Part shown: positions 1,030-24,562 of the stretch, one piece after another
How the letters are laid out: the number at the start of each line of letters is the position of its first letter
Numbering within the stretch: the first letter of the stretch is position 1
From: a virus
Virus record (IMG/VR): IMGVR_UViG_3300045421_000618
Coordinates: 1-24,562 of that record
Strand: one strand, 5' to 3'
Length of the DNA: 24,562 bases
Program-made: the position numbers and the translations under genes
Notes under the pieces: model-generated
The model's database searches: none
What the model saw: only the letters and a program-made list of their open reading frames with translations
What the model was told of the DNA's origin: nothing

Positions 1030-1056
1030 TTGATTTTTTAAAAAATATATTAAAAT
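1030..1056 (+). promoter_or_regulatory. Early-type promoter of uvsX, predicted leaderless
   Basis: TTGATT (1030-1035), a 15-nt spacer and TAAAAT (1051-1056) lie 6 nt before the ATG at 1063. The predicted transcription start coincides with the start codon. No Shine-Dalgarno sequence is present. Confidence 0.6.
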
Positions 1057-1062
1057 AGAATA

Positions 1063-2169
1063 ATGAAAGATCTTAATAAGATATTCGCGTCTTTGGACAG
1101 TCTCAATAGTGAGGCTTCGTTTTTAAATGAAAATGCTTTAAGCAAAGTTGATACTTGGTATGATACTGGTTGCTATGCTCTAAATGCAATTTTGGGTGGC
1201 AGTTGTATTAAGGGCGGAGTACCTAAAGGCCGTATAGTTGGTTTTTCTGGTCCAAGTCAAACAGGTAAAACGTTTATAGTAAATAAAATTTTAGCAAATG
1301 CACAAAAACAAGGCTTGTACCCTGTTATTTTTGATACTGAAATTGCTATTGATGAAAATAGTACGAAAGGTGTCGGTCTTAATGCGGAAGGCACAAAGTA
1401 TGTCCCGGTAGATACTATTGATCAATGTCGTAATCAAATTTCTACTTTTTTAGATAGTGTTATAGAAAATAATGCTAAAGGTAAATTTATTATTAGTATT
1501 GATAGTTTAGGTAATCTTGCATCTCAAAAAGAACTTGATGATGTAGTGAAAGATAAATCTGCAGCAGATATGGGTCTGAGAGCTAAGTCTCTTAAAAGTA
1601 TGTTTCGAGTACTAACTTTTAAGGCTGCTAAAGCAGGAGTTACAATTTTATTTACCAACCATACATATGACGACCCAGCTTCAATGTATCCAAGCTTAGT
1701 TAAAAACCAAGCCGGCGGATCCGGTCCTCTCTACATGTCTAGTATTTTAGTTCAACTAGCCAAACGAAACGAAAAAGAAGGCGAAGGAGATAGTTTACTG
1801 GATGATGTTAAGTTAGCAGAAGCGAACAAATATACCGGTACTACTATTCGAGCTCTTACAGTTAAAAATAGGTTTTTACCGCCATTTCTAGAAGCTGAAA
1901 TGTACTTATCTTTTAAAACAGGTCTTAACAAGTACAGCGGTTTGCTCGCTATGGCATCAGCTCGTAATATTGTTGTTCAGAGCGGGCCTACTTTTACTGT
2001 TGGTATTGATTGTGGTAAATATAAAAAAGGTGATAAACTTGGTTATGCAAAAAACTTTGCTAAAGATGCAGCTTTTTATGACGGGTTTATTATTCCTGAG
2101 CTTGACAAGATACTTCAAAACGAATACTCATACCATTCTAATACATCTGTAGATGAGCCGGTTGAGTAG
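1063..2169 (+). CDS. uvsX: UvsX RecA-like recombinase
   Basis: RecA/Rad51-family strand-exchange ATPase, which pairs ssDNA with homologous duplex for recombination-dependent replication and repair. At 368 aa it is close to T4 UvsX (391 aa). Walker A is GPSQTGKT (residues 63-70). The DTE motif with catalytic glutamate is at about 91-93. Walker B is IISIDS, ending at D147. The TNHTYDD segment (about 199-205) fits the L2-region switch, and the NQAGGSGP run after it fits the DNA-binding loop. It is the first gene after a terminator, with its own early-type promoter, and its 3' end overlaps queC by 17 nt, suggesting a shared transcript. No SD precedes the ATG. Identification is confident from motifs and context. 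Confidence 0.95.
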   Translation: MKDLNKIFASLDSLNSEASFLNENALSKVDTWYDTGCYALNAILGGSCIKGGVPKGRIVGFSGPSQTGKTFIVNKILANAQKQGLYPVIFDTEIAIDENSTKGVGLNAEGTKYVPVDTIDQCRNQISTFLDSVIENNAKGKFIISIDSLGNLASQKELDDVVKDKSAADMGLRAKSLKSMFRVLTFKAAKAGVTILFTNHTYDDPASMYPSLVKNQAGGSGPLYMSSILVQLAKRNEKEGEGDSLLDDVKLAEANKYTGTTIRALTVKNRFLPPFLEAEMYLSFKTGLNKYSGLLAMASARNIVVQSGPTFTVGIDCGKYKKGDKLGYAKNFAKDAAFYDGFIIPELDKILQNEYSYHSNTSVDEPVE

Positions 2170-2890
2170 AGTTGTAGTTCCTGTCAGCGGAGGAATGGAT
2201 AGTTCTGTATTGCTGCATTACGCAGTCAAAATCTATAGTCATACAGATGCTATATCATTTAATTATGATCAAAAACATAAAAAAGAGTTGAAGTGTGCAA
2301 AACTTCAAATTGATTCTGTTAGGGAAAAATATGGTACTAAAAAAACAAATCATACTATTGTTCCAATTTCATTTTTTAAGGATATAGCCCGCACTAGTGC
2401 TTTAACGAATAAAAAAATTAAAGTAGCCTATGCTAAGAATGTTATGGGTGATCCTCAAACAGTTAATTATGTACCGTTTAGAAACATAATGCTTTTAAGT
2501 ATTTGTCTTGCATATGCAGAGAGTAATAATGCTGCAAAAATTATTCATGGAGCGGCGCAAGCTGATAGTGTCGCTGGATACTGGGATGGAAGCCCGGAAT
2601 TTTTAGACAAAATAAACGAATTATCCTCTTTAAATCGACGGACTAAAATAGAAGTTATTGCACCTCTTCTAACTAAATCAAAAGCAGATATTGTTAAAAC
2701 GGGTATTAGCTTAGGTGTCGATTTTAGTAAAACCTGGACATGCTATGAAGGTAAAAATATTGCATGCGGTAAATGTACGGCTTGTTCGCTTAGGATAAAG
2801 GGATTTCTAGATGCTGGATATATTGATCCTTTACCATATAAAATTGAAATACCTTGGGAGAAAAATAACTGTAAAAAAATTAATATATAG
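2153..2890 (+). CDS. queC: QueC-like 7-cyano-7-deazaguanine (preQ0) synthase
   Basis: QueC converts 7-carboxy-7-deazaguanine to preQ0 using ATP and ammonia, supplying queuosine/archaeosine pathways and, in some phages, deazaguanine DNA modification. The PP-loop SGGMDSS is at residues 12-18. The family's YxQxH segment appears as NYDQKH. YVPFRN and a SKADIVKTGISLG segment follow. Four zinc ligands are visible: C197, C205, C208 and C211 (CY...CGxCxxCxLR). One family position is altered: the usual Y-P-D-C-R reads YWDGSPEF, so the DCR becomes DGS. Length (245 aa) is normal. The start lies inside uvsX (17-nt overlap), and the 3' end overlaps the inverted next gene by 11 nt. No queD, queE, folE or DNA transglycosylase gene lies in this window. 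The family is confident; the pathway endpoint is open. Confidence 0.9.
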   Translation: MSRLSRVVVPVSGGMDSSVLLHYAVKIYSHTDAISFNYDQKHKKELKCAKLQIDSVREKYGTKKTNHTIVPISFFKDIARTSALTNKKIKVAYAKNVMGDPQTVNYVPFRNIMLLSICLAYAESNNAAKIIHGAAQADSVAGYWDGSPEFLDKINELSSLNRRTKIEVIAPLLTKSKADIVKTGISLGVDFSKTWTCYEGKNIACGKCTACSLRIKGFLDAGYIDPLPYKIEIPWEKNNCKKINI

Positions 2891-3752
2891 CTTCTCTTGA
2901 CTTCTGTCTTAGCATTTCTTTATATGAAGGTAGCTCTCTAATTGCATCCTCTATATCTCTATCAGATGTAGGTATTGGACCGATAGCTAACCCGTCCACA
3001 TCATCAAGCATTCTAGTATCTTTTTTTCTTTCAAAAAAAGCCTTATTTTTTAATAAACCTGTAACAACATCCCAAAACTGGCGTCTATCTACTCCAGCTA
3101 TAATCATGTTTTTCTTAATAGAAGTAGACATATCATCGCCGTCTATTTCATCGCTCATTCCCTTAAAAATTTCATTTAATTTTCCTTCTAGAACAGCTTC
3201 ATTATTTTTGTAATAAATAAATCCGCTTTCGTATCCTTCTTCTTCAGTAGGAAATTTTTTATCGACCACAACAGGCTGGTCTGGTAATGTTTCAGGGTTC
3301 GATATATTTTTAGTATTTAGTTTGACTAACCCTCCCAAAGTTTTTTTAGCATGAAGAATATATATTAAAATATAATTAATTGTATATTTTGCCATAGTAG
3401 GGCTTATACCATATTTTTGTTTAAATTCTGGTACTAAGCTATTGATAAATGCATCCGGTTCTCCAGAAAAATAATGCACCATTTTGCCATTAACTTCTTT
3501 TTTATCGCCAGTTTTTGCTATAATAGTTTTAGCCATGTCTTCAGCAACTTCATTCTCTGATTTACCCTGTATTTCAGCTACTTTCTTTATTGCCCCTGCG
3601 CCATATTGCTTTCCTTGCCCCGGCAAAGTCTTGTTTACAACAGGGCCTACATCAATACCGCCCTCCATTTCTACTGGAGACAACTCATTTAACAGGTTTG
3701 GATTACGAGATCTAACATAATTCTCATATATTAAATGTATATCTCTATTCAT
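2880..3752 (-). CDS. Unknown late protein, 290 aa, inverted between queC and GATase
   Basis: I do not recognise this family. The protein is soluble and charged, with no signal peptide. One hydrophobic helical stretch (YTINYILIYILHAKK) is probably buried core rather than a membrane span. The N-terminus MNRDIHLIYENYVRS followed by LLNELSP resembles the short helical capsid-targeting leaders of T4-like internal proteins, with an LxE-type site (L-N-E) where gp21-like protease could cut. It has a T4-late-type octamer AATAAATA (3767-3760 on the minus strand) 7 nt before the ATG and no -35 box, unlike its neighbours, so it is probably expressed late and may be a virion or prohead component. It separates the two halves of a possible Gat-QueC system. 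The virion role is inferred. Confidence 0.85.
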   Translation of the reverse strand: MNRDIHLIYENYVRSRNPNLLNELSPVEMEGGIDVGPVVNKTLPGQGKQYGAGAIKKVAEIQGKSENEVAEDMAKTIIAKTGDKKEVNGKMVHYFSGEPDAFINSLVPEFKQKYGISPTMAKYTINYILIYILHAKKTLGGLVKLNTKNISNPETLPDQPVVVDKKFPTEEEGYESGFIYYKNNEAVLEGKLNEIFKGMSDEIDGDDMSTSIKKNMIIAGVDRRQFWDVVTGLLKNKAFFERKKDTRMLDDVDGLAIGPIPTSDRDIEDAIRELPSYKEMLRQKSREAIY

Positions 3753-3753
3753 C

Positions 3754-3781
3754 TTGAAATATTTATTCTCTCAAATAAAAT
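3754..3781 (+). promoter_or_regulatory. Early-type promoter of the GATase operon, predicted leaderless
   Basis: TTGAAA (3754-3759), a 16-nt spacer and TAAAAT (3776-3781) lie 6 nt before the ATG at 3788. The predicted start of transcription falls on the start codon. Confidence 0.6.
3760..3767 (-). promoter_or_regulatory. Late-type octamer for the 290-aa minus-strand gene
   Basis: AATAAATA on the minus strand lies 7 nt before the ATG at 3752 with no -35 box. It lies inside the spacer of the divergent early-type promoter at 3754-3781, so the two may interfere. Confidence 0.55.
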
Positions 3782-3787
3782 AATTTT

Positions 3788-4474
3788 ATGTGTGGAATCT
3801 TTGGTTCTAAAAACTTTAAAACATATACAAGTCTTTACAATAAAAACAAAAAACGCGGTACTTTTGCGTTTGGCGGTATCTTTGTTACTGCAAATATTTA
3901 CGCAACCCTCAGGTCGCCAGGCAAAATAACCTTATCAAAAAATCTAGTTATTAAATATTCAAAATTTAAAAGGAAAATAGACGATTTTGAGTATTTTCTC
4001 GGTCATACTCAAGCTCCGACATCATCTATTAGAAAATATGATCATAAAACATCACATCCCTTTAATGTAGAGGATTGGGTTGTTGCCCATAATGGTGTAC
4101 TAACAAACCATCTTGAATTAAAGAAAAATATTAAAAATAAAAAATTGTTTAACGAAGTTGACTCTTCCATTATACCTGCTCTGCTACATTTACAGCGCAA
4201 AAAATTTCCCAAAAAAGATGAAGCCAGCCTCATTTCATCTATTTTAGGGCTACTACAAGGTAATTTCGGTCTTTGGATATATAACTCTAGATCTCAAAAC
4301 GTTTATATTGCACGCTCGGGTGCTACTCTTTATGCAGATTTTTTAAATAATAGCTTTTCTTCATTATCTGAAAAAGGCTTTAAAGCTATTGAAGAAGGTG
4401 TTTTATATTTGTTAACACCGGAAGGTATTACTGAAGTCGGTGAGTTTAAATCAAACTCGCCTTTCTATACATGA
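3788..4474 (+). CDS. Class-II glutamine amidotransferase (stand-alone GATase-II domain)
   Basis: N-terminal-nucleophile glutaminase that releases ammonia from glutamine for a partner synthetase. The catalytic cysteine follows Met1 directly (MCGIFG). Other landmarks keep GlmS-like spacing: R23-G24, G72-H73-T74, AHNG at about 100-103 and VDSS with D125. The GHTR arginine that binds the glutamine carboxylate in GlmS reads Q75 here, which may alter substrate binding. At 228 aa it is only the glutaminase domain, with no SIS, phosphoribosyltransferase or asparagine-synthetase domain, so it needs a partner in trans. QueC, less than 1 kb away, is a natural candidate because fused Gat-QueC proteins exist. 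It overlaps the glycosyltransferase by ATGA (translational coupling). Family confident; partner inferred. Confidence 0.88.
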   Translation: MCGIFGSKNFKTYTSLYNKNKKRGTFAFGGIFVTANIYATLRSPGKITLSKNLVIKYSKFKRKIDDFEYFLGHTQAPTSSIRKYDHKTSHPFNVEDWVVAHNGVLTNHLELKKNIKNKKLFNEVDSSIIPALLHLQRKKFPKKDEASLISSILGLLQGNFGLWIYNSRSQNVYIARSGATLYADFLNNSFSSLSEKGFKAIEEGVLYLLTPEGITEVGEFKSNSPFYT

Positions 4475-5157
4475 AATTTGCTTTCTATTTTTGTACTCGT
4501 AAAAAAGCTGAAGATACTTTAACCTATCAATCTTTAAATAAGATTTTTAAAAAAGCTCTTTTTAAATTTAAGCTTTTTTATGATTTTAATAATGAAAAAG
4601 GGTTAAGCGAAAACTATAATCAAATTCTAAAAAATTACAAAAACGAATTTGATTATATTATTTTCTTACATGATGACTTGATAGTTGATGATGCAAACAT
4701 TTGTGAAAAACTAATACAAGCCCACAAAGATTACGATATCGTTGGACTCGCCGGTGGTATTAATCCAGTTGTTGCAAAACCAGCTTTATGGCATCTAATG
4801 TGCGGTGGTTTTGGTAGTGGGAATTTAAGAGGAGCAGTTGCCCACCCAGCATCTTTACTGCATCAAGATAATCAAATTCTTATGACATGCTTTGGACCAA
4901 CTCCCGCTCGCGTTACTATTTTAGACGGCCTATTTTTAAGTATAAATTGTAAGCGAGTTATTGAAACAAACTGGAAATTCAACGAAAACTATAAATTTCA
5001 TCATTATGATATAGCAAGTAGCATAGATGCAAATAACAAAAAATTAAAACTCGGTGTAACACCTATTTGGGCGGTACATAGTTCACCCGGTCTTTTAAAT
5101 CCGGGCGACAGTTCATTTTTGCAGAGCCAGGAAAAGTTTATTCAAGAATACTCTTGA
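4471..5157 (+). CDS. GT-A-type (family 2-like) glycosyltransferase
   Basis: Probable nucleotide-sugar-dependent glycosyltransferase. After an N-terminal beta-alpha segment, the pattern NEKGLSENYNQILK leads to YIIFLHDDL (H67-D68-D69), the DxD-equivalent metal/nucleotide site of GT-A enzymes. VGLAGG (91-96) and a later LDGLFLSIN (151-159) match the acceptor-side core of this family. FHHYDIASS (176-184) gives a histidine/aspartate typical of the C-terminal active-site wall. No signal peptide or membrane span is seen, so it is cytoplasmic. It overlaps the GATase by ATGA and ends just before gp41 helicase, so it is likely cotranscribed early with DNA replication genes. The acceptor could be modified phage DNA, a virion protein or the host surface; the sequence does not decide this. 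Confidence 0.85.
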   Translation: MKFAFYFCTRKKAEDTLTYQSLNKIFKKALFKFKLFYDFNNEKGLSENYNQILKNYKNEFDYIIFLHDDLIVDDANICEKLIQAHKDYDIVGLAGGINPVVAKPALWHLMCGGFGSGNLRGAVAHPASLLHQDNQILMTCFGPTPARVTILDGLFLSINCKRVIETNWKFNENYKFHHYDIASSIDANNKKLKLGVTPIWAVHSSPGLLNPGDSSFLQSQEKFIQEYS

Positions 5158-5174
5158 ATAACTATTTACGTAAC

Positions 5175-6500: not shown

Positions 6501-6502
6501 AA

Positions 6503-6530
6503 TTGATTTTTATAAGTTAAAAACTAAATA
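6503..6530 (+). promoter_or_regulatory. Early-type promoter of the DHH gene, predicted leaderless
   Basis: TTGATT (6503-6508), a 16-nt spacer and TAAATA (6525-6530; extended form ACTAAATA at 6523-6530) lie 5 nt before the ATG at 6536. It shows features of both promoter classes seen here. Confidence 0.55.
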
Positions 6531-6535
6531 AATTT

Positions 6536-7450
6536 ATGGCAGAAAAGCCTATTGACAATATCTTTATTTTTACAGATGCAGATCTCGACGGTGCATGCTG
6601 CTACTCTGTATTTAGATGGTATACAAAGCTTATATGCCCATATAAATCTTGTACGGAAAAAACATTTAGAAAAGATTTTGAAAATTTTTTAAAAAATAAT
6701 AAAGCGGAAAGTTTTAAAAAAATTTATATTTTTGATTTATCTATTTTAAATAAAAATGAAGATATTGCCGATCTTCCTAATTTAACATACATTAACCACG
6801 GTGAAGATGACCCTGATGATATAAAAAAATTTAAAAATGCTAAAATTATAACCGAAAATAGCTCAAGCTGCGCTTTAATGCTTTATAAAAGATTAAAAGA
6901 TAAATACGGAGACATTCTTACCGAACAACAAAAACTTTTAATATCTCTTGTTAACGACTACGACAGCTACAATTTAAAACATCCCCTGTCAAAAGATCTT
7001 AATTTTTTATTTTGGAGCTATCAGGGTGATAGAATAGAAAAATTTTACAATGATTTTAAAAATGGCTTTACAGTGTTTACCCAGCAGCATAAAAATTTAA
7101 TTAAGTTTTACAAAGAAAATTTAAATAAAGTATTAGAAGGTTTAACAGTATTCAAAACAAATACTGAATATAAAAATTTAAACTACAAAGTAGTTAGTAC
7201 ATTTACGAATACGGCTCCCAGTGAAGTTGCCCACTATATTTTAGAAAAACACAATGGCGATATAGCTATTGTAGTAAATTTAAATACAAAATATATAAGC
7301 TTAAGAAAAGATAAAAACAAAAACGATAATCTTCATATTGGTAACTTTACAAAAACGAATTTCAAAGGCGGTGGAACTAAAAATATAGGCGGTGGATTTA
7401 TCAATGAAGAATTTTTAACTTTTAGTAAAAAGCTGGAGGCCTGTAAATGA
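6536..7450 (+). CDS. DHH-superfamily phosphoesterase, degenerate DHH motif
   Basis: RecJ/NrnA-like fold predicted to act on single-stranded DNA ends or small (oligo/cyclic) nucleotides. Motif I is FTDADLDGACC (D14, D16, D18). Motif II is YIFDLSI (D67). The signature DHH motif reads INHGEDD (87-92), so only one histidine is kept. Motif IV is LVNDYDSY (D141). The C-terminus has a glycine-rich GGGTKNIGGGF segment like the substrate-binding DHHA1 GGGH element. At 304 aa it is NrnA-sized, smaller than RecJ. It heads an operon with tight overlaps (ATGA to the next gene). Activity is uncertain because motif III normally binds metal, so it may be altered, inactive or regulatory. Confidence 0.85.
   Translation: MAEKPIDNIFIFTDADLDGACCYSVFRWYTKLICPYKSCTEKTFRKDFENFLKNNKAESFKKIYIFDLSILNKNEDIADLPNLTYINHGEDDPDDIKKFKNAKIITENSSSCALMLYKRLKDKYGDILTEQQKLLISLVNDYDSYNLKHPLSKDLNFLFWSYQGDRIEKFYNDFKNGFTVFTQQHKNLIKFYKENLNKVLEGLTVFKTNTEYKNLNYKVVSTFTNTAPSEVAHYILEKHNGDIAIVVNLNTKYISLRKDKNKNDNLHIGNFTKTNFKGGGTKNIGGGFINEEFLTFSKKLEACK
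7435..7439 (+). promoter_or_regulatory. Shine-Dalgarno site for 7447
   Basis: GGAGG with a 7-nt spacer to ATG 7447. This is one of only two convincing SD sites I found, and it belongs to an internal operon gene overlapping its neighbour by ATGA. Confidence 0.75.
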
Positions 7451-7728
7451 AAGTAGACCCCTCCTATTCAATCACAGCATATGAGTTTAATCATTTGTTT
7501 TACTCTTTTTGTACTTTAATAAGTTTACTACAAACTAAAAAAATGAATCTAGCAAACATATTTTTACTTCTTTTACAGAATTCAAACGTAAGAATTTTGT
7601 TTAAAGAATATTGTGATTTTGAAAATGATTATCTTGCCGTAAAAAGCTTTTTACAATTTGATACTGGATTATATAAGAGTAAATATATAATGAAATATCT
7701 TAACGCAAACAAAAAAGCACTACTATGA
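7447..7728 (+). CDS. Hypothetical protein, 93 aa
   Basis: Not recognised. It is a small, predicted helical protein rich in F, L and N (NHLFYSFCTLISLL, ANIFLLLLQNSNVRILF) with a basic C-terminus. The hydrophobic stretches are broken by polar residues and are more likely a helical core than membrane spans. It starts with a clear SD (GGAGG, 7-nt spacing), overlaps the DHH gene by ATGA and the bS21 gene by ATGA. It sits in the replication block, so an accessory replication or translation role is possible, but nothing in the sequence shows it. Confidence 0.8.
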   Translation: MKVDPSYSITAYEFNHLFYSFCTLISLLQTKKMNLANIFLLLLQNSNVRILFKEYCDFENDYLAVKSFLQFDTGLYKSKYIMKYLNANKKALL

Positions 7729-7928
7729 TTAACGTAAACGCAGAAATAACGCTAGATAGAAAGAAATCCCTAGATAAGGATTATTTTGCAAGAAAATACA
7801 ACAAGTTTGCTCGTGAGGTTCAAAAGTCTTTAGTATTAGAAACAATTCGGTTTTTTAAATATGGATACAAGCCAAGTGTTAAAAAGCGAGTCAAAAAAGA
7901 ATTCGCTCGTTACAAATGGCGGTACTAG
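7725..7928 (+). CDS. rpsU: Ribosomal protein bS21 homologue
   Basis: A 67-aa basic protein matching the bS21 pattern: an N-terminal strand (INVNAEITLD), then a helix with KYNKFAREVQKSLVLETIRFF, then YGYKPSVKKRVKKEFAR. The last segment corresponds to the family's YEKPSxKRxRKxxxA signature, with E changed to Y in YGYKPS. Length is normal for bS21. bS21 sits on the 30S platform next to the 16S 3' end (anti-SD) and affects mRNA selection; phage-encoded bS21 is known from several marine and metagenomic phages. It overlaps upstream (ATGA) and downstream (13 nt) genes in an early-type operon. It ends in an aromatic YKWRY, which differs from typical RRxxRLY tails. Most of this phage's genes lack SD sites, so a role in biasing initiation is plausible but inferred. 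Confidence 0.8.
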   Translation: MINVNAEITLDRKKSLDKDYFARKYNKFAREVQKSLVLETIRFFKYGYKPSVKKRVKKEFARYKWRY

Positions 7929-8566
7929 AATTTTCTGATTTTGAAAAGTATATTTACAATACTTTTTTAAGGGTCTCTCGTAACGGCAAACCTTACAAAA
8001 ATAGAAAAAATTTTGCGGAGTTATTAGATAAAAAAGAATATGTTTATTTAAAAAAACTGTCAAATTTTTTCAATCGTTTTAAACACATTGACGTTCAAAG
8101 CTTTTTTAAAGCACCTTATGAACTTTACCAAGATGAAAATTATTTTGGATTGGATTATTATATCAGTCTTAAAGCGATTAACGCCTATACTACACTTTTG
8201 AAGAAAAACGAGCTCTTAGATCCAGACGAAAAACAACAACTTAAAAATATTTTAAAATCATTTAAGTTTATTAAACAGTTTTGCAGCGAGCAAAATATTA
8301 ATGTAGACAGCTATGTAAACCATAGAACAAACAACATGTTTTCTTTTTTACTTCATTTACAAGAGCATAAAATCAATTTTTATTCTTTATTAGAATTCAA
8401 AGACACAATTCGCAACATAAGATTGGTGGGGCCCGAGGTTTTAGAGTTTATGCTAGGTAAAGATTTTTATTCAAAAATAGAAATTTTTAGAACAAAATAT
8501 ATTGTCTCGAGAAAAGCCAAATTACTCTGTTCTTATGCCTATAAAAAAATTAAAAATAACGCTTGA
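7916..8566 (+). CDS. Hypothetical protein, 216 aa; possible gp59-like helicase loader
   Basis: Predicted almost all-helical, aromatic- and lysine-rich, 216 aa. T4 gp59 (helicase assembly protein) is also all-helical, 217 aa, and encoded next to gene 32; here the gene ends 30 nt before gp32. By eye, weak shared patterning is visible: VYLKKLSNFF against gp59 YFFQKLSEKY, a central DYY...LK segment, and a C-terminal segment with KxxIFRTKYIVSRKAK. I consider this suggestive only. It overlaps the bS21 gene by 13 nt and lacks an SD. The gene itself is well supported; the function is a guess from size, fold and neighbourhood. Confidence 0.8.
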   Translation: MAVLEFSDFEKYIYNTFLRVSRNGKPYKNRKNFAELLDKKEYVYLKKLSNFFNRFKHIDVQSFFKAPYELYQDENYFGLDYYISLKAINAYTTLLKKNELLDPDEKQQLKNILKSFKFIKQFCSEQNINVDSYVNHRTNNMFSFLLHLQEHKINFYSLLEFKDTIRNIRLVGPEVLEFMLGKDFYSKIEIFRTKYIVSRKAKLLCSYAYKKIKNNA

Positions 8567-8590
8567 ATTAGGTGTTGCTCATTATAAAAT
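8563..8590 (+). promoter_or_regulatory. Early-type promoter of gene 32, predicted leaderless
   Basis: TTGAAT (8563-8568, overlapping the upstream stop), a 16-nt spacer and TAAAAT (8585-8590) lie 6 nt before the ATG at 8597. It is the best example of the class. Confidence 0.65.
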
Positions 8591-8596
8591 TTTAAT

Positions 8597-9852: not shown

Positions 9853-9855
9853 TTG

Positions 9856-11266: not shown

Positions 11267-11283
11267 TTTTAATAAGTTTTATT

Positions 11284-12406: not shown

Positions 12407-12419
12407 TTTAAAGTTTATT

Positions 12420-12427
12420 TATAAATA
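12420..12427 (+). promoter_or_regulatory. Perfect T4-late-type octamer, predicted leaderless
   Basis: TATAAATA with a TTTTT spacer, 5 nt before the ATG at 12433. A TTGTAA at 12401 is present but is probably only the preceding stop region. Confidence 0.65.
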
Positions 12428-12432
12428 TTTTT

Positions 12433-12699: not shown

Positions 12700-12702
12700 A
12701 TT

Positions 12703-14140: not shown

Positions 14141-14147
14141 ACATTAT

Positions 14148-14155
14148 TATTTATC
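14148..14155 (-). promoter_or_regulatory. Late-type octamer for the 139-aa gene
   Basis: GATAAATA on the minus strand lies 7 nt before the ATG at 14140 and has no -35 box. It is divergent from the late octamer at 14160-14167, only 4 bp away. Confidence 0.55.
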
Positions 14156-14159
14156 CTCG

Positions 14160-14167
14160 AATAAATA
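14160..14167 (+). promoter_or_regulatory. Late-type octamer for 14174
   Basis: AATAAATA lies 6 nt before the GTG at 14174 (ATAAATAT with 5 nt is an equivalent register). No -35 box and no SD are present. Confidence 0.55.
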
Positions 14168-14173
14168 TATTTA

Positions 14174-14548
14174 GTGAAGAAAAAGTTAATGTTCGAGGAT
14201 GCTATTGAATATTATAATAAATGGACAACAGGTATGGCTGCAAGAGAAATTGCTGCACAACAAGTTACACTTAAAGACCTGTTTAACAAATCCATGTCTC
14301 AATTTCCTAATCAAATTAAATTAAGAAAGAATTTACCTTTTCCACTAACAACAGTTACAGATTCTTTAGGACAAATTTATGTAGATGCATCAAATGCTTT
14401 ACAGCTCTTTGAAACTGCATTAAATTTCCCTCTTGTATCAGAGAATACTAAAGCAAAGCATGAAGTACAAGATGCTATTCAAAAACTGAGAGCTATAGTA
14501 GACACAGTTAAGTATATTGGTAATGGCTTAGATAAAATTATTGATTAG
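14174..14548 (+). CDS. Hypothetical late protein, 124 aa
   Basis: Not recognised. All-helical in appearance: MFEDAIEYYNKWTTGMAAREIAAQQ, TLKDLFNKSMSQF, then a C-terminal helix pair (NALQLFETALNF, HEVQDAIQKLRAIVDTVKYIG). The start is GTG with a late octamer upstream; an ATG six codons in (MFEDAIEYY) is an alternative. I looked for gp16 small-terminase features because the large terminase is nearby, and found no convincing match. Late timing and the strand-switch position beside inverted morphogenesis genes make an assembly function more likely than replication, but nothing in the sequence proves it. Confidence 0.82.
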   Translation: MKKKLMFEDAIEYYNKWTTGMAAREIAAQQVTLKDLFNKSMSQFPNQIKLRKNLPFPLTTVTDSLGQIYVDASNALQLFETALNFPLVSENTKAKHEVQDAIQKLRAIVDTVKYIGNGLDKIID

Positions 14549-14568
14549 TTTCTTTGTTCTTATAAAAT
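14541..14568 (+). promoter_or_regulatory. Early-type promoter for 14573
   Basis: TTGATT (14541-14546, overlapping the upstream stop), a 16-nt spacer and TAAAAT (14563-14568) lie 4 nt before the GTG at 14573. Confidence 0.5.
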
Positions 14569-14572
14569 AATT

Positions 14573-17069: not shown

Positions 17070-17074
17070 AAATA

Positions 17075-17082
17075 TATTTAAG
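17075..17082 (-). promoter_or_regulatory. Late-type octamer for the 129-aa / gp14 operon
   Basis: CTTAAATA on the minus strand lies 5 nt (TATTT) before GTG 17069. The same octamer CTTAAATA occurs upstream of gp17. Confidence 0.6.
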
Positions 17083-17083
17083 C

Positions 17084-17115
17084 AAAAAAAGAGCCTAACT
17101 TACGTCAGGCTCTTT
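17084..17115 (-). terminator. Rho-independent terminator for the 279-aa minus-strand gene
   Basis: A 9-bp stem (17088-17096 with 17107-17115) has a 10-nt loop and, on the minus strand, a run of seven T (17090-17084). It lies 20 bases after the stop at 17136 and just upstream of the next late octamer, so it separates two minus-strand transcripts. Confidence 0.85.
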
Positions 17116-17135
17116 CATTTATAATCTATTTTATA

Positions 17136-17975
17136 TTACTTTTGATATATATAAGCCCCGACATTGGATGCTTTACCAGCAACTTTATTGCTCTTACCAG
17201 TAAGCGATTTTCCTTTGCTATCCGCTAAGTTACCGTCATTACCTACTTTGTCAGTAACCTTACCATCACCATGACCTTTAGCAACCAAGTTAGTAACTGT
17301 ACCATGTACTTTATTATCTTTCTTAGTTAACGATTCACCAGCAGAAGGCTTAAGCTCTGTCATTTCAGTAGCTTCTTTATGAGCACATTCTTCTTTCTCG
17401 TCGTCGGCTTCTTCATTTGCTTCGCTGGGCTTAAGACCACCGAGATCTTCTGATTCACCGCCTAAATCTTCTTCACCACCATGATCTTCTTCTCCGCTAC
17501 CTAAAGCAGAATGAAGAACATCACAAAGTTGCTGAGCAACATCGCGAGGTAATGTGAAGCTTACTTCACCGCCTTCTTCGTCTTTATTAATATCTATATC
17601 TAATGCCTCCGCATCAGCCATATCGTCTTTAACTGTCGGCTCACCGCCGAGAACTTCCTCGTAAAGCTTATCAAAAATAGACTTATTATTCATAAAATTA
17701 TTTATTCTTTTTACTTCTGTTTTTTCTAAATTTTGTGAATATTTTTTAGGCTCGAAGTGATTATCTTCTTTAGTATCATGCTCAGGGTCTACTAATGCAT
17801 TTTTGTCAAAATTCTGCGAACTCTCCGGACCCGTATTTTTTATAAAAGCCTTAGGATCAGCTTTTGCATCGGTTAATTTCTTATCTTCTGCCTTTTTAAA
17901 TGTAGACAGCTTATTTTTAGATACTGTTTTTTCATACAATAACCCTATATCTACTAGTGTCTTTGCGTTATTCAC
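17136..17975 (-). CDS. Acidic low-complexity late protein, 279 aa, with internal start
   Basis: Family unknown; probably virion or prohead-core. Residues 1-94 are charged and look disordered. Residues 95-160 begin MNNKSIFDKLYEEVLGG, a leader-like amphipathic helix, followed by a small folded-looking part (VSFTLPRDVAQQLCDVLHSAL). Residues 160-180 are an acidic G/E/D repeat (GEEDHGGEED LGGESEDLGG). The C-terminus carries degenerate K/G/N repeats (SLTKKDNKVHG, SLTGKSNKVAG). The start is GTG 17975 with a perfect TATAAATA 5 nt upstream. A second late box, AATAAATA, lies 5 nt before the in-frame ATG at residue 95 (17693), so a 185-aa product is predicted too. A terminator follows. Scaffold-like composition is seen; function is inferred. 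Confidence 0.82.
   Translation of the reverse strand: MNNAKTLVDIGLLYEKTVSKNKLSTFKKAEDKKLTDAKADPKAFIKNTGPESSQNFDKNALVDPEHDTKEDNHFEPKKYSQNLEKTEVKRINNFMNNKSIFDKLYEEVLGGEPTVKDDMADAEALDIDINKDEEGGEVSFTLPRDVAQQLCDVLHSALGSGEEDHGGEEDLGGESEDLGGLKPSEANEEADDEKEECAHKEATEMTELKPSAGESLTKKDNKVHGTVTNLVAKGHGDGKVTDKVGNDGNLADSKGKSLTGKSNKVAGKASNVGAYIYQK
17699..17706 (-). promoter_or_regulatory. Internal late-type octamer within the 279-aa gene
   Basis: AATAAATA on the minus strand with an ATTTT spacer, exactly 5 nt before the in-frame ATG at 17693. The spacer and ATG are identical to those of the gp19 promoter. Confidence 0.6.
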
Positions 17976-17982
17976 TTAAATA
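17975..17982 (+). promoter_or_regulatory. Candidate late-type octamer for gp17
   Basis: CTTAAATA lies 11 nt before ATG 17994, giving a predicted leader of about 6 nt. The longer distance makes it weaker than the other late boxes. Confidence 0.4.
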
Positions 17983-17988
17983 TTTATA
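17981..17988 (-). promoter_or_regulatory. Perfect late-type octamer TATAAATA, predicted leaderless
   Basis: TATAAATA on the minus strand with a TTTAA spacer lies 5 nt before GTG 17975. It overlaps by two bases the forward CTTAAATA that precedes gp17. Confidence 0.65.
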
Positions 17989-17993
17989 TCTAT

Positions 17994-19700: not shown

Positions 19701-19703
19701 TAT

Positions 19704-20351
19704 ATGAGTATTCTTACTCCTTTACAGCAGAGCCCTTTTAATAAATCACGCCGCGATAAATTTTTAATGTCGTTTAATGTACCGCCCGCTCTTAAACAAA
19801 TTTCTACAAAAGATGTAAGAGATAACAATATTATTATACCGGATACTCTTCAGTTTTCAGTATTTGGTATTATTGTTCCAGACATTGAAATAAGTGCCTC
19901 AGTAGTTAGATATGGGGGTCAAACATTGACAACTAGCAGTTATAATAGAAATCCTTATCCTCCCATGGTTGTAAACTTTACGGTTGATAATAGATTTAAT
20001 AATTATTGGGTCATTTATACATGGTTAAACTTATTTAATGACGAAAAACAAGGAACATTCGATATAGATAATTTGACTAAAACTCCTAAAGCTCTTAAAG
20101 AATTCGGTATCTCTAAACCTGAAGATATAAACTTAGTTAGAGAAGTCAACTTAAACTATAGAGCCGATATTTCTATATATGCTTTAGATGAATATAACAA
20201 AAAAACCGTACAGTTTAAATATATTCAGTCATTCCCTACATTCCTAGGTGGCATAAATTTTAACTACCGGGATGGTACTGAAATAGAAACAAGCTTTGCG
20301 TTTAGTTACTCCCAGTTTTATGTCTCCTTAGTAAAAGATGTAGATATGTAA
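19704..20351 (+). CDS. Tail-tube-fold structural protein (gp19/gp54-like), 215 aa
   Basis: Probable tail tube-fold protein located between terminase and sheath. After an N-terminal arm, it shows strands LQFSVFGIIVPDIEISASVVRYGG and the recurring motif VNFTVDNRFNNYWVIYTWLNLF (hydrophobic-x-F-x-x-D-x-x-x-x-x-Y...W). That motif resembles T4 gp54 ISFRMDSEACNYRAMQDW and the analogous segment in the gp19 gene here. The C-terminus SFPTFLGGINFNYRDGTEIETSFAFSYSQF matches the closing beta pair. It could form a tube terminator, tube-cap or a baseplate-proximal ring; the sequence does not choose. It starts 4 nt after gp17 with no SD; an ATTAAATT box 5 nt upstream is weak. Confidence 0.82.
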   Translation: MSILTPLQQSPFNKSRRDKFLMSFNVPPALKQISTKDVRDNNIIIPDTLQFSVFGIIVPDIEISASVVRYGGQTLTTSSYNRNPYPPMVVNFTVDNRFNNYWVIYTWLNLFNDEKQGTFDIDNLTKTPKALKEFGISKPEDINLVREVNLNYRADISIYALDEYNKKTVQFKYIQSFPTFLGGINFNYRDGTEIETSFAFSYSQFYVSLVKDVDM

Positions 20352-20382
20352 AGAAAAAAGTAAAAAACTTTATCCAAAAAAA

Positions 20383-20390
20383 CATAAATA
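20383..20390 (+). promoter_or_regulatory. Late-type octamer of gene 18
   Basis: CATAAATA lies 6 nt before ATG 20397, with no -35 box or SD. Confidence 0.6.
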
Positions 20391-20396
20391 ATTTAT

Positions 20397-22682
20397 ATGG
20401 CACGTACGATCCAAAGCCCCGGTGTTGAAATTAAAGAAGTAGACCTTTCATTAGCAGCTATAGGACAAGCTGCAACCACAGTTTTTGTACCTGGTTTTGC
20501 TTCAAGAGGTCCTGTTGCCGAGCCTTTTAAAATTGCAAGTATTTCACAATTTGAACAAATCTTTGGCCAACCCACAAATGCTGCTGAGAGATATTTTTAT
20601 CATACTGTAAAAGCAGTTTTTCAGAGCCCTGCTGATGTTCTTGTGTATCGCCTACCTTATGGTGGTGGCGCCGGAGTAGGTACAAGTCAAAATTTTAGTG
20701 CATTAGTATATCCAGTGGTTTCATATGTTAACAGTGCTTCAAGCACATCACTTACAACTGCAAATTCTCATTATTATTTTGGTAAACCGACACATGTAAG
20801 ATTATCTGAAGTAGAATATCTAGATATTTTAAGAGGTAACGCTTTTAATTGGAGCGCTGATACGGGTGGTGTTGCAACATTTGAAACTGTACCTTCTTTA
20901 AGTGCTGCTGGTTTAATTATTCTCAACAAATCGCAGTCATCTATTAATTCTCGTTACGAAGGTTATTATGTAGGTATCGTTGATAATACTAATCTTGATC
21001 CGGCTACTCCTTTTAACGATATAAATGCTATTAAAACAATTAATAATAGCAACCTATTTATCAATAACTATATTGATATACCTAGCGTTAGATTAAACTT
21101 CCCTCTCAGTGCTGCTCCCGCTGGTGTAGCCGGGAGTATATCAGAAGTACTTGAAAATATCCCTACATTTAATATTTATAATCCACAATTTAATGATACC
21201 GCTATTGTAGGCTTATTCAAACTACGTCAATCTATCTTTTCACCAGATACAATCGCTCTTGATTATGTTCTAGAAGAAGGCTTTATTGGTTCATTTGATA
21301 ATTTTAGGCAGATCAATAACGTAAATGGCGGACCACCCACCAGCTTCTTTTTAGAAAATCTTGATGATACGTCTTTAAATATAACGACGCTTGTTAATCC
21401 CTATATTTCTAATAAAGCTACAACAACATGGTTAGATCTCTCTGGTATACCTTCAAAAATGGTAAGGTTCTTGAGTGAACCCATAGCAACTCCGAAAGTT
21501 GATGAAAGTGCAGATGAATATGAAACCCGTCTTGGCGCTCCTTCCGCATCTTTACAAGCTTTTATTAATACATACGGTACAACAAACGCATTGTTTTCAC
21601 TAGGCGACTACGAGAGCACAGATCTTACTACTAAGGTTATTGGTAATGTTCCTGCTAAATTAGTAGCAGCCTTTGATAAACTTGAAAATGCAGATGTATA
21701 TCCGATTAACATAACGGTTGAAGCCGGCTTAGGTACCGTTTATATCAATTCGTTTAACCCATTAACAGACGGTTACTTCGATGATTCTATTGTATACGGT
21801 GCGATCAACGCGTTAAGTGCATCCGATCTTCGAGTAATTCCTTCTGTCATACAAAATTATTTAGGTGTTGCAAATGAATTTATTAACTTTGCTTCTAACA
21901 AGCGTAAAGATCATATTTATATTGCAGATCCTATTACAAATATTTTTGTACAGGGACTTAATGTTAAGACGCTAGATGATCCTACAAAGAGCTTTTCAAC
22001 AAATATCTACTGGCCTTTACGTAATCAATTTAATGCCATTAATACAAACTATGCTTGTACCTTTGCAAATTGTGGTCGGACGGTAGATGTTATTACAAAT
22101 CAACAAATCTGGGTACCGTTCTCTGGATTTGCTGCTGCTAACTTTGCAAATACAGACTCAACATATCAGCCTTGGTATGCACCTGCAGGATTTACACGCG
22201 GTATTGTAACAGGCCTTAATGATTTAGCGTTTTATCCGAAACAAAAACAGCGCGATCAGTTGTATAAGATCGGTATTAATCCGATTGCGTTCTTCCCTGC
22301 CGAAGGATTCGTAATCTTTGGTCAAAAGACCCTGCAGCAAAAGCCCAGCGTATTTGATCGCATTAACGTCCGTAGGTTATTCTTAAGCTTAGAGAACAGA
22401 ACACGTGAGACCGTCAAGTTTTTTGTGTTCGAACCGAATACACTGTTTACACGTACTAATGTGGTTAATACAATCACACCGATATTTGATAATGCAAAGA
22501 ATACACAGGGTATATTTGATTACTTAATTATCTGTGACGAACGTAATAACACACCAGAAATTATTGATGACGGGGTACTTGTAATTGATATTTATGTGAA
22601 GCCGGTACGTACAGCAGAATTTATATTATGTAACTTCTATGCTACGAGAACTGGTACAAACTTCCAGGAGATCGTAACGTAA
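20397..22682 (+). CDS. 18: Tail sheath protein (T4 gp18-like)
   Basis: Contractile sheath subunit that surrounds the tail tube and contracts to drive it through the host envelope. The N-terminus MARTIQSPGVEIKEVDLS and VFVPGFASRGPVAEPFKIASISQFEQIFGQP match the sheath family's conserved opening. The C-terminal domain has GRTVDVITNQQIWVPFSGFAAANF, PWYAPAGFTRG, NDLAFYPKQKQRDQLYKIGINPIAFFPAEGFVIFGQKTLQQKPSVFDRINVRRLFLSLE, the hallmark sheath core, ending in TRTGTNFQEIVT. At 761 aa it is somewhat longer than T4 gp18 (659). The inserted middle region is poorly conserved and may be a surface-exposed protrusion. It has its own late octamer. Confidence 0.95.
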   Translation: MARTIQSPGVEIKEVDLSLAAIGQAATTVFVPGFASRGPVAEPFKIASISQFEQIFGQPTNAAERYFYHTVKAVFQSPADVLVYRLPYGGGAGVGTSQNFSALVYPVVSYVNSASSTSLTTANSHYYFGKPTHVRLSEVEYLDILRGNAFNWSADTGGVATFETVPSLSAAGLIILNKSQSSINSRYEGYYVGIVDNTNLDPATPFNDINAIKTINNSNLFINNYIDIPSVRLNFPLSAAPAGVAGSISEVLENIPTFNIYNPQFNDTAIVGLFKLRQSIFSPDTIALDYVLEEGFIGSFDNFRQINNVNGGPPTSFFLENLDDTSLNITTLVNPYISNKATTTWLDLSGIPSKMVRFLSEPIATPKVDESADEYETRLGAPSASLQAFINTYGTTNALFSLGDYESTDLTTKVIGNVPAKLVAAFDKLENADVYPINITVEAGLGTVYINSFNPLTDGYFDDSIVYGAINALSASDLRVIPSVIQNYLGVANEFINFASNKRKDHIYIADPITNIFVQGLNVKTLDDPTKSFSTNIYWPLRNQFNAINTNYACTFANCGRTVDVITNQQIWVPFSGFAAANFANTDSTYQPWYAPAGFTRGIVTGLNDLAFYPKQKQRDQLYKIGINPIAFFPAEGFVIFGQKTLQQKPSVFDRINVRRLFLSLENRTRETVKFFVFEPNTLFTRTNVVNTITPIFDNAKNTQGIFDYLIICDERNNTPEIIDDGVLVIDIYVKPVRTAEFILCNFYATRTGTNFQEIVT

Positions 22683-22684
22683 GG

Positions 22685-22692
22685 GATAAATA
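22685..22692 (+). promoter_or_regulatory. Late-type octamer of gene 19, predicted leaderless
   Basis: GATAAATA with an ATTTT spacer, 5 nt before ATG 22698, lies 3 bases after the sheath stop. Confidence 0.62.
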
Positions 22693-22697
22693 ATTTT

Positions 22698-23246
22698 ATG
22701 GCCGATGTAAATCAACTTATAACCGACTTTTACAGAGTAGCAACATCAAGAGAATTTGCACGCGACTTTAATTTTCGTGTATTAAACATTAACGCCGGTG
22801 GTGCCAGTGGCGTAACATTCGATAACAACGATTTAGTCTATATTAAATCAACTTCATTACCAGCGCGTTCAATTACAAATATTACGGTTCCTTACATGGG
22901 TCTCAATTTTAATATACCAGGTACTGCAACATACCCGGGGAGCGATGCATGGGACGTAACGTTCTATGCAGATGCAAATTCCCAAATTCGTCAAAAGTTT
23001 GAACAATGGACAAGAGACACGTTTGATGATGCCACCAGCACGGGAAATTATTTTACACCAAACCAAACATCTGTTATTGACTTGGTACAGCTTGACAATC
23101 AGTTGAACCGTGTACAGCAGTATCAGTTAGTTGGTGTTTCCCCTCGTCAAGTAGGTGCACTTACATATAATATTGCTACCGGTACAGGCGATACAATAGA
23201 ATTTACAGGTACATTAGCCTATCATTACTATAGAATTGTGAGCTAA
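22698..23246 (+). CDS. 19: Tail tube protein (T4 gp19-like)
   Basis: Major inner tail tube subunit through which DNA is ejected. It opens MADVNQLITDFYRVATSREFARDFNFRV, with the gp19-type tube strands PARSITNITVPYMGLNFNIPGTATYPGSDAWDVTFYADANSQIRQKFEQW (the F-x-D...W motif of this fold) and a closing segment LVGVSPRQVGALTYNIATGTGDTIEFTGTLAYHYYRI. At 182 aa it is close to T4 gp19 (163). It has its own leaderless-type late octamer, 15 nt after gp18, so sheath and tube can be made at independent rates. The position directly after sheath is the standard T4 order. Confidence 0.93.
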   Translation: MADVNQLITDFYRVATSREFARDFNFRVLNINAGGASGVTFDNNDLVYIKSTSLPARSITNITVPYMGLNFNIPGTATYPGSDAWDVTFYADANSQIRQKFEQWTRDTFDDATSTGNYFTPNQTSVIDLVQLDNQLNRVQQYQLVGVSPRQVGALTYNIATGTGDTIEFTGTLAYHYYRIVS

Positions 23247-23258
23247 TTAGGTTTCCCT

Positions 23259-23266
23259 AATAAATA
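23259..23266 (+). promoter_or_regulatory. Late-type octamer for 23272, predicted leaderless
   Basis: AATAAATA lies 5 nt (ATTAG) before GTG 23272. A short inverted repeat precedes it. Confidence 0.6.
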
Positions 23267-23271
23267 ATTAG

Positions 23272-24165
23272 GTGATATCGGACCCGAATAGTTCCTTTCT
23301 AGGAGGAATTTCACAAAATCTTAATCAGTTTACTTTTGCACCTCAGTTCGCTAGTTTATTTGGTTTTAATCTCCCTGCTGTACCTATTATAAGCGTACGA
23401 GATTATTTCTTAGTACAAATGGAATCTTGGTTTTCTTCTATACCAACATCAACACAATGGGTAATGGTAGTAGATAATTACCCTAAAGCATTACGCACAA
23501 GTATTATACAAGGCTTAGAACGTATAGATGGCGGGCGTCGAGGGTTTGATATAAACCCGGCAACAACTCTTTTGAATAGTTTATTTTATCAAAAGATAAT
23601 TGGGTGCTTATTTGCTAGTTCTATAACACTACCATCAGAAGAATTTGATCCCGAATCCGTTTCAGTTTCTAATAACCGTGGTTATTTACCTGGTGTATTA
23701 GGAGGCCCTAGAACGAATACCCCTAAAACTTTAACAATTGATTTTAGAGAAACCAATACATCGTTTATAGACTTTGTCATACGTCCTTGGACAATTTTAG
23801 CTTCACATTACGGAATGGTGGCTCGCCCGGGCGATAATGGGCAGCGCAAAGATGATAAAAATATTAAATGTAATATTCAAATTTTTCAATATACACGCAC
23901 ATTGAGAGCTATTTCTATGATTCCTCGTAAGATATGGACGTTTTATAACTGTATTCCCTACAATATTGGTGAGGAAACATTTGATTATGATACCGATAAA
24001 TTAGATATCTTTAGTACTAGATGGACATTTTCAAATTATACTGTAGAAAATAACAATTATTTAGCCTTAGCAGACATTATTAACCGTATTCAGCAGGGTG
24101 CTATACCGCGCGTTACAACATTTCAAAATGGTATTGGTAGTATTAATCCCATAGGATTTATCTAA
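23272..24165 (+). CDS. Tube-fold baseplate/tail protein (gp54-like)
   Basis: Probable tube-initiator or baseplate-tube junction protein of the T4 gp54/gp48 group (tube-fold proteins). An N-terminal helical part precedes the beta core: CLFASSITLPSEEFDPESVSVSNNRGYLP, then TLTIDFRETNTSFIDFVIRPWTIL, whose F-R-x-x-x-x-x-F...W layout matches gp54 and the two other tube-fold proteins here. SMIPRKIWTFYNCIPYNIGEETFDYDTDKLDIFSTRWTFSNYTV matches the C-terminal strands (T4 gp54 HTAVMFTGCIPISVSAPELSYDGDN). At 297 aa it is near gp54 (320). The start is GTG; there is no alternative near it and no SD. Confidence 0.82.
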   Translation: MISDPNSSFLGGISQNLNQFTFAPQFASLFGFNLPAVPIISVRDYFLVQMESWFSSIPTSTQWVMVVDNYPKALRTSIIQGLERIDGGRRGFDINPATTLLNSLFYQKIIGCLFASSITLPSEEFDPESVSVSNNRGYLPGVLGGPRTNTPKTLTIDFRETNTSFIDFVIRPWTILASHYGMVARPGDNGQRKDDKNIKCNIQIFQYTRTLRAISMIPRKIWTFYNCIPYNIGEETFDYDTDKLDIFSTRWTFSNYTVENNNYLALADIINRIQQGAIPRVTTFQNGIGSINPIGFI

Positions 24166-24170
24166 ACCCT

Positions 24171-24178
24171 AATAAATT
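24171..24178 (+). promoter_or_regulatory. Late-type octamer for the last gene
   Basis: AATAAATT (ending T instead of A) lies 5 nt before ATG 24184, with no -35 box. Confidence 0.5.
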
Positions 24179-24183
24179 ATTAC

Positions 24184-24562
24184 ATGGGTGATTTTTTCTT
24201 TAATGGCTATGCTCCTACCCTACAAAAGGACATTAAGTTAAAAGAACTTTCGTTTGCTCAATACAAAACTCTTAACAAGTTTATTACTAACAACAACGAT
24301 ACGCATATTTCTGATTATTTTACAAAAATTTTACAAGAAAATATAGTAGAAAAAGATGTCTTATCGCAGTTAACTAGCTATGACAAATTTTGTTCATTAC
24401 TAATGCTTAGATGTATATCTGTTTCTCCTAATGTTGAGTACAAAAAAGAGGGCGGTAACTACAAATTCCCTCTTATACCCTTTCTTCAACAGTGTCTTGA
24501 CATTAAAACAGAGTTTTCAAACGAAATAAATATAGATAATATTTCTTTTTTACTTGGTCTTC
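24184..24562 (+). CDS. Partial late gene, possible baseplate hub/assembly protein
   Basis: The frame stays open to the window end (about 126 codons), so the C-terminus is missing. The visible part reads MGDFFFNGYAPTLQKDIKLKELSFAQYKTLNKFI, then a charged helical stretch and YDKFCSLLMLRCISVSPN. The pattern of an initial K-E-L-S-F-x-x-Y, followed by DKF...LL-LR, recalls the T4 baseplate hub-assembly group (gp26/gp51 type, T4_baseplate family) of marine myoviruses. I hold this loosely. It has a late box 5 nt upstream and follows the tube-fold genes, which fits a baseplate role. Confidence 0.75.
   Translation, partial: MGDFFFNGYAPTLQKDIKLKELSFAQYKTLNKFITNNNDTHISDYFTKILQENIVEKDVLSQLTSYDKFCSLLMLRCISVSPNVEYKKEGGNYKFPLIPFLQQCLDIKTEFSNEINIDNISFLLGL

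Follow-up and report, generated by a model that had tools for sequence, protein, structure and literature searches.

Leaderless phage mRNAs and -10 boxes adjacent to open reading frames (ORFs) are already known. According to the available text of PMC3594737, the middle and late mRNAs of phiYS40, a phage of Thermus thermophilus, are leaderless, with IF2 up and IF3 down; in Deinococcus-Thermus, a -10 box directly before the ORF gives leaderless mRNA, as described with experimental support in the part available of PMC12340547. The T4-like, gp55-linked version proposed here appears to be new; a search of full-text literature, with most subscription papers outside its coverage, found no leaderless late mRNAs in T4-like phages and no such gp55-linked lineage. 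Our analysis concerns a 24,562-base IMG/VR virus record (IMGVR_UViG_3300045421_000618; hereafter the window, meaning the whole stretch), a fragment of a T4-like myovirus with a G+C content of about 32%, and the promoter-like boxes that end a few nucleotides before its start codons. The window encodes UvsX-, DnaB-helicase-, gp32-, terminase- and sheath-like proteins plus a tail tube protein. It most likely belongs to a lineage of uncultured T4-like myoviruses that is largely leaderless, in which two promoter classes both place the predicted +1 at the start codon or 1-2 nt from it.

As in the T4 late system, whose octamer begins at -13 in the available text of PMC2988020 (the geometry assumed in an initial annotation of the window), the lineage has an octamer of the form wwTAAATA without a -35 element, located before structural genes, and a gp55 homolog is found in relatives. 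The T4 late region differs: its octamers all keep more than 8 nt away from starts, TAAATA is mostly at a distance of 12-28 nt and Shine-Dalgarno (SD) motifs are common. In the lineage studied here the octamer directly adjoins the start codon, and SD motifs are rare. The leaderless mRNAs of phiYS40 are a close parallel to those predicted here from sequence, but that phage and its host are different; the lineage carries bS21-like genes, and genes of the phiYS40-like IF3/S1 kind were rejected, as 15 viral contigs yielded neither an IF3 nor an S1 domain. In addition, by geometry, the early sigma70-type class would be leaderless here too. The Deinococcus-Thermus cases differ in residing on bacterial chromosomes, using host sigma and lacking a gp55 octamer class. 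The freshwater myoviruses of Chen et al. (2022), compared by published description, likewise encode bS21; in the portion of that text available (PMC9723584) the terms 'leaderless' and 'promoter' do not occur.

In the proposed arrangement, late structural genes would be preceded by a gp55-type octamer (consensus wwTAAATA, no -35) ending 5, sometimes 6 or 7, nt before the start, and replication and other genes by a sigma70-type TTGA-N-TATAAT promoter whose -10 box ends 6 nt before it. The mRNAs would be leaderless and translated without an SD helix, probably via a 5'-terminal-AUG/GUG route, while operon-internal genes would have no promoter, mostly no SD, and depend on coupling. We infer the activity of the boxes as promoters, the position of +1 at the start codon and the translation route; in a T4-type late promoter system they would depend on gp55, gp33 and the sliding clamp.

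Box positions in the window and its relatives

The initial annotation listed 15 boxes in the window, and re-reading the sequence recovered all of them with their coordinates, strands and spacings. Eight end 5 nt before a start codon: late octamers TATAAATA at 12420-12427 (before ATG 12433) and 17981-17988(-) (before GTG 17975(-)), AATAAATA at 23259-23266 (before GTG 23272 of a tail-tube-like gene), CTTAAATA at 17075-17082(-) (before GTG 17069(-)) and GATAAATA at 22685-22692 (before ATG 22698 of the tail tube gene); an internal late octamer AATAAATA at 17699-17706(-), before the in-frame ATG 17693(-); an octamer variant AATAAATT at 24171-24178, before ATG 24184; and ACTAAATA at 6523-6530, before ATG 6536. 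Five end at 6 nt, namely the octamers CATAAATA at 20383-20390 (before ATG 20397 of the tail sheath gene) and AATAAATA at 14160-14167 (before GTG 14174), and the TAAAAT boxes at 1051, 3776 and 8585. The remaining two, at 7 nt, are AATAAATA at 3760-3767(-), before ATG 3752(-) of a gene with no homologs among the fetched loci, and GATAAATA at 14148-14155(-), before ATG 14140(-).

The spacing proposed in the initial annotation therefore stands; its single promoter type does not, because the three TAAAAT boxes form a separate sigma70-type class. They belong to TTGATT...TAAAAT at 1030-1056 (TAAAAT at 1051-1056), before ATG 1063 of the UvsX-like gene; TTGAAA...TAAAAT at 3754-3781 (3776-3781), before ATG 3788 of a glutamine amidotransferase-like gene; and TTGAAT...TAAAAT at 8563-8590 (8585-8590), before ATG 8597 of the gp32-like single-stranded DNA-binding (SSB) protein gene. 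A further member, TTGATT...TATAAA at 14541-14566, ends 6 nt before GTG 14573. The box at 6523 keeps its spacing and is ambiguous in class, with a TTGATT at the -35 position that ends 27 nt before the start.

Base composition alone might be expected to scatter TAAATA near starts in so AT-rich a genome, and the window has no excess of the word TAAATA itself (60 sites, where shuffles average 74.3). Its position relative to starts is another matter: TAAATA ends 5-7 nt before 10 of 36 starts (6 at 5 nt, 2 at 6 and 2 at 7), whereas 2000 dinucleotide shuffles of the upstream 40 nt average 0.33 such starts and never exceed 4. The AT-rich Campylobacter phage CP220 (27% G+C) has TAAATA at 9-31 nt only and none at 5-7 nt in 46 genes, with SD-like motifs before 37 of the 46. 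The shuffles and this control lead us to reject chance, which the gene-by-gene conservation described below also makes extremely improbable. Of the 18 window genes preceded by 13 nt or more of intergenic space, the same 10 have TAAATA at 5-7 nt and 4 more have a hexamer with at most one mismatch to TATAAT at 6 nt together with a TTGA -35; at the other 4 (602, 11284, 17994 and 24184) the boxes are weaker or displaced. The claim that most transcription units are organized in this way thus holds in the window (14 of 18), but in longer contigs a conservative count gives about half.

Megablast of the window against 50,697 phage records gave no match, and the closest named terminases are 38.9% identical to its own (Sinorhizobium phage phiM9). 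Relatives were taken from uncultured viruses, as the best 80 of 267 loci with terminase identity of 60-100%; they split into a closer group of 52 loci (69-100%) and another group of 28 (60-67%). In a count of NATAAATA boxes with an ATG ORF of 60 or more codons after them, 177 of 381 boxes in the closer group lie at 5-6 nt, 49 at 7-12 nt and 88 at 13-44 nt, 33 of the last at the single distance of 44; the other group has 79 of 178 at 5-6 nt, 43 at 7-12 and 33 at 13-44. The T4 late region has 0 of 28 boxes at 5-6 nt, 1 at 7-12 and 15 at 13-44, and phiM9, phiM12 and cyanophage S-MS29 have none at 5-6 nt; altogether the octamer-start spacing is missing from five of seven T4-like reference regions.

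A similar distribution is seen in five long related contigs, in which 748 genes were called from codon usage alone, with no promoter or SD term (on 33 hand-picked T4 genes the caller recovered 33 stops and 30 exact starts). The octamer is not equally frequent at other distances in these contigs: TAAATA ends 5, 6 and 7 nt before 92, 44 and 31 genes, and beyond 12 nt it occurs in 0-3 genes per contig at nearly every distance. Among 377 leading genes, defined by a gap of at least 25 nt, 99 have TAAATA at 5-7 nt. In the other 278, a hexamer with at most one mismatch to TATAAT ends exactly 6 nt before 52 starts, against about 7 expected from distant positions, and at 5-8 nt before 116, against about 29. 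With a looser match to TATAAT, every one of the five contigs has its peak at 6 nt (23, 22, 14, 5 and 7 genes).

The boxes are also conserved gene by gene, as judged from homolog-anchored, distinct upstream sequences in the 80 relative loci. TAAATA lies at 5-7 nt in 33 of 44 sheath upstreams (26 of these at 6 nt), in 28 of 30 of the tube-like family 23272 (25 at 5 nt), and in 25/26, 27/30 and 27/43 for families 14174, 13721(-) (start 14140(-)) and 17136(-) (start 17975(-)); of 36 upstreams in the tube family 22698, 25 have it at 5-6 nt and 9 at 10 nt. The octamer core lies at 5-7 nt in 19 of 24 for family 12433 (18 at 5 nt) and in 9 of 12 for family 16680(-) (start 17069(-); 8 at 5 nt). In family 24184 the box is poorly kept, with 3 of 18 upstreams having TAAATA at 5-6 nt. 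TAAATA is missing from the SSB and primase families, which instead carry -10-like hexamers at 6 nt (TATAAT, TATACT or TATTAT in 5 of 14 SSB upstreams; 11 of 26 for primase). Of the 31 upstreams in family 14573, 5 have such a hexamer at 6 nt and another 5 at 7 nt. No box is seen in 52 of 57 upstreams of family 19704 and 33 of 38 of family 15968(-), whose members in the window begin at or close to the end of a neighbouring gene. No homologs of 602, 1063, 2880(-), 3788 and 6536 occur among the 80 loci. The predicted promoter class follows gene function, with the putative late box used before structural genes.

Two predicted promoter classes and their register

Two predicted promoter classes are present, as in T4, both abutting the start codon. 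Position-specific k-mers in the 278 octamer-less leading upstreams include TATACT and TATAAT with a spacing of 6 nt to the start (14 each), and TTGA with one of about 30-31 nt. TTGA occupies the -35 position in 35 of 65 genes with a -10 box at 6 nt, compared with 3 at a control distance; the corresponding figures are 6 and 2 for the 92 octamer genes, and 57 and 19 for the 441 genes that have neither box. Sequence logos and these TTGA counts agree in giving the octamer class the features of a T4-type late box, that is, an 8-bp TATAAATA-type element with no conserved -35. The modal spacing of the octamer class, the prevailing type at structural genes, is 5 nt; that of the sigma70-type TTGA...TATAAT class, found before replication genes, is 6 nt.

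The difference of one base is informative. With its first base at -13, the T4 octamer extends to -6 and leaves 5 nt to +1, while a sigma70 -10 hexamer covers -12 to -7 and leaves 6 nt. A +1 at the first base of the start codon would thus give the modal spacings of 5 and 6 nt that are observed, and as a ribosome-binding signal would have no reason for a one-base shift, the register speaks for promoters. Among 19 related contigs, 9 encode a gp55 homolog; one of these is contig G013, whose terminase fragment is 100% identical to that of the window over 539 residues; the window record, itself a fragment, contains no gp55.

The boxes might also be late and early promoters whose start-site choice yields leaders of about 2-8 nt, so that the mRNAs are not strictly leaderless. 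We regard this as improbable. Spacings of 6-12 nt, which such leaders would explain, are common in some families (gp18 mostly 6 nt, tube 10 nt in 9 of 36, terminase 9-12 nt), but 5 nt is the commonest spacing (92 of 167 octamer genes at 5-7 nt in the five contigs) and by T4 geometry leaves no room for a leader, and GTG starts are confined to it. GTG starts number 53 at 5 nt, 5 at 6 and 0 at 7, against 136, 96 and 29 for ATG. The tendency of GTG to spacing 5 is repeated within families 14174 and 17136(-), and in the five contigs the counts at 5, 6 and 7 nt are 27, 6 and 1 for GTG and 65, 38 and 30 for ATG. The contrast gives a Fisher p of 6e-9, a value that overstates independence, the sequences being related. 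The confinement is consistent with leaderless mRNAs on which a GTG has to be the exact 5' end.

Translation signals and possible hosts

SD-like motifs precede 3 of 35 starts in the window, in agreement with the scarcity first noted there, and 64 of the 748 genes in the five contigs. T4 has 32/46, phiM9 33/52, phiM12 21/40, Pelagibacter phages HTVC008M and Mosig 23/45 and 32/46. Among leading genes with a gap of at least 13 nt, an SD-like motif is found in 3 of 123 with an octamer versus 22 of 325 others.

SD scarcity is compatible with another reading of the A/T-rich box, as an RNA-level translation signal in the style of Bacteroidota, with promoters further upstream. Bacteroidota mRNAs are SD-less and leadered, with favourable adenines at -3, -6 and -12/-13; Bacteroidia ribosomes are described as SD-blind partly via bS21 in the available part of PMC9976891, relatives of the window encode bS21, and a distant relative lies inside a Bacteroidota metagenome-assembled genome (MAG). 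The sequence around the starts argues otherwise. A(-3), a key determinant in Flavobacterium johnsoniae according to the text available of PMC6847099, is disfavoured: in spacing-5 genes position -3 is 71% T and 22% A, against 40% T and 37% A in all 748 genes, and the Bacteroidota-type Kozak-like start, with A at -3 and -6 and an A-rich stretch from -14 to -11, was not found. The box and its trailing T-rich stretch shift as a unit relative to the start, and the two box types stand one base apart in register, one of them with TTGA at -35. The box is also found in 0 of 50 stop-start overlaps, a point of little weight because a box at spacing 5 would there create an in-frame TAA within the preceding gene. 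Overall, an RNA-level signal seems to us unlikely, if slightly less so than short leaders.

Genes for bS21-like proteins above the Pfam cut-off occur in 6 of the 15 viral contigs. In the window, a small related gene at 7725-7928(+) scores below the cut-off (Pfam Ribosomal_S21, E 0.056) and is 43% identical over 67 aa to a homolog in contig G004 that passes it; this gene is possibly part of the translation strategy. The window copy has Tyr where Bacteroidia have Tyr54, and the copies in contigs G002, G003 and G004 have Asn (compared by eye). A small conserved gene at 7447-7728 lies beside it, and its counterpart also adjoins bS21 in the same three contigs. An SD before gene 7447 had been considered a sign of autoregulation; this was dropped, as the homologous gene in these contigs has no SD. 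G002 also contains a predicted tmRNA gene (L105:283-688(-)), and tRNA genes number 17 in contig G001 and 4 in the fetched part of G004.

Clues to the hosts are mixed. The lake bS21 myoviruses have predicted hosts in Bacteroidetes, in the available portion of PMC9723584. Flavobacterium mRNAs are mostly leadered (available parts of PMC9723704 and PMC6847099), with 5.5% of F. psychrophilum mRNAs leaderless (PMC9723704), and the Bacteroidota sigma-A -7 box TAnnTTTG has no positional peak in the 278 octamer-less leading upstreams; together these two points argue against a Bacteroidota host. A scan of genome contigs found a 42% terminase relative in JAGBVI010000001.1 (375,692 bp; Paludibacteraceae MAG, where binning is weak evidence), a 20% relative in an alphaproteobacterial MAG and no others. 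In JAGBVI010000001.1, SD-like motifs are few, in 29 of 271 genes under table 11 and in 25 of 236 when TAG is read through; 22 or 23 genes form a -10 peak at 6 nt, and TAAATA is scattered from 5 to 9 nt. This contig is phage-like, with a gp55-like frame that contains an in-frame TAG; read-through lengthens its genes and raises coverage from 0.83 to 0.90, which suggests TAG recoding.

Several observations weigh against a largely leaderless lineage of this kind. The gp55 homolog was not seen in 10 of the 19 contigs, most of these 10 being short fragments. Terminase upstreams have TAAATA at 9-12 nt in 18 of 53 and no recognised box in 19, and at that spacing leaders of several nucleotides are likely at this gene; the boxes at 7-12 nt in the closer group (49 of 381) are a further departure. 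A recognised box at the leaderless register is found in roughly half of the leading genes of the five contigs, a floor, because near-consensus boxes alone were counted. HTVC008M has 2 of 15 boxes at 5-6 nt (2 genes) and Mosig one at 5 nt, so the architecture is not exclusive to the lineage, and cyanophage S-MS29, which lacks it, has few SD-like motifs (11 of 39). SD-like motifs at stop-start overlaps exceed shuffles (13 of 50 vs 4.8 in the closer group, 8 of 28 vs 3.1 in the other), which indicates that some SD use remains and that host ribosomes are not wholly SD-blind. The counts pool related, non-independent sequences throughout. Set against these, the signal is positional, lineage-wide and conserved gene by gene, and it is accompanied by SD loss; on this sequence evidence the leaderless arrangement first proposed is favoured, and we infer it as such.

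Nested and divergent boxes, neighbouring genes and implications

The internal octamer at 17699(-) keeps the spacing first described; the start behind it is an internal, in-frame one within ORF 17136-17975(-), not that of a separate ORF. The predicted nested gene, 17136-17693(-), corresponds to the C-terminal ~185 residues of the 279-aa ORF, with a start of the type M-N/S-K-S-I-F-D-K-L. Each of the 45 distinct homologs examined, all 200 aa or longer, has an internal TAAATA before an in-frame ATG (spacing 5 in 43, 8 in 2); for terminase and sheath homologs, comparable pairs number 1 in 69 and 2 in 57. Read in the coding frame, the box is ATA AAT A. Its Ile codon is ATA in 43 of 43, against 118 of 349 Ile codons across these genes, and the following Asn codon is AAT in 45 of 45, against 451 of 685 overall, while conserved neighbouring codons vary synonymously; the invariance shows that selection acts on nucleotides. 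The alignment becomes conserved where the nested product begins, and that product has no Pfam or PHROG match. The ORF likely gives two products. Lambda Nu3 is nested in gene C, and by analogy we would guess at a scaffold-type role.

Overlapping divergent late promoters are predicted in the 18-bp space at 17976-17993, between starts 17975(-) and 17994(+), which consists of 5 nt, TATTTATA and 5 nt. In relatives, 44 of 54 divergent pairs are separated by 16-23 bp, with a core of the TAAATATTTAT or TAAGTATTTAT kind in between. The near-palindromic core in the window is possibly a single box read in both directions or two overlapping boxes. Close by, an intrinsic terminator at 17087-17116(-) has a T tract that abuts the 17075(-) octamer, a layout visible in all 14 relatives displayed.

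Among the neighbouring genes, three proteins around the sheath gene match phrog_45 (tail tube), at 19704-20351, 22698-23246 and 23272-24165. Near the UvsX gene, a QueC-like protein (2153-2890) and a glutamine amidotransferase-like protein (3788-4474) possibly act in 7-deazaguanine or nucleotide-sugar metabolism.

A bolder version of these ideas, which we hold to be rather unlikely, is that the whole lineage has committed its host-sigma and gp55 promoters to leaderless mRNAs, that the bS21-like protein, possibly with others, biases ribosomes towards 5'-terminal start codons, and that in-frame nested late genes with their own leaderless promoters are routine. If this is true and the hosts are Bacteroidota, with SD-less, leadered mRNAs of their own, the missing leader would mark phage messages for translation. 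T4 late transcription is the textbook leadered, SD-bearing system; this widespread lineage keeps its octamer and a gp55 homolog but would fuse the promoter to the start codon, an example of how the two halves of phage gene expression can be coupled anew. The architecture also yields transcription start sites predicted at base resolution from sequence alone and improves start calling, notably of GTG starts and nested genes, and the link between phage bS21 and SD-free translation becomes directly testable.

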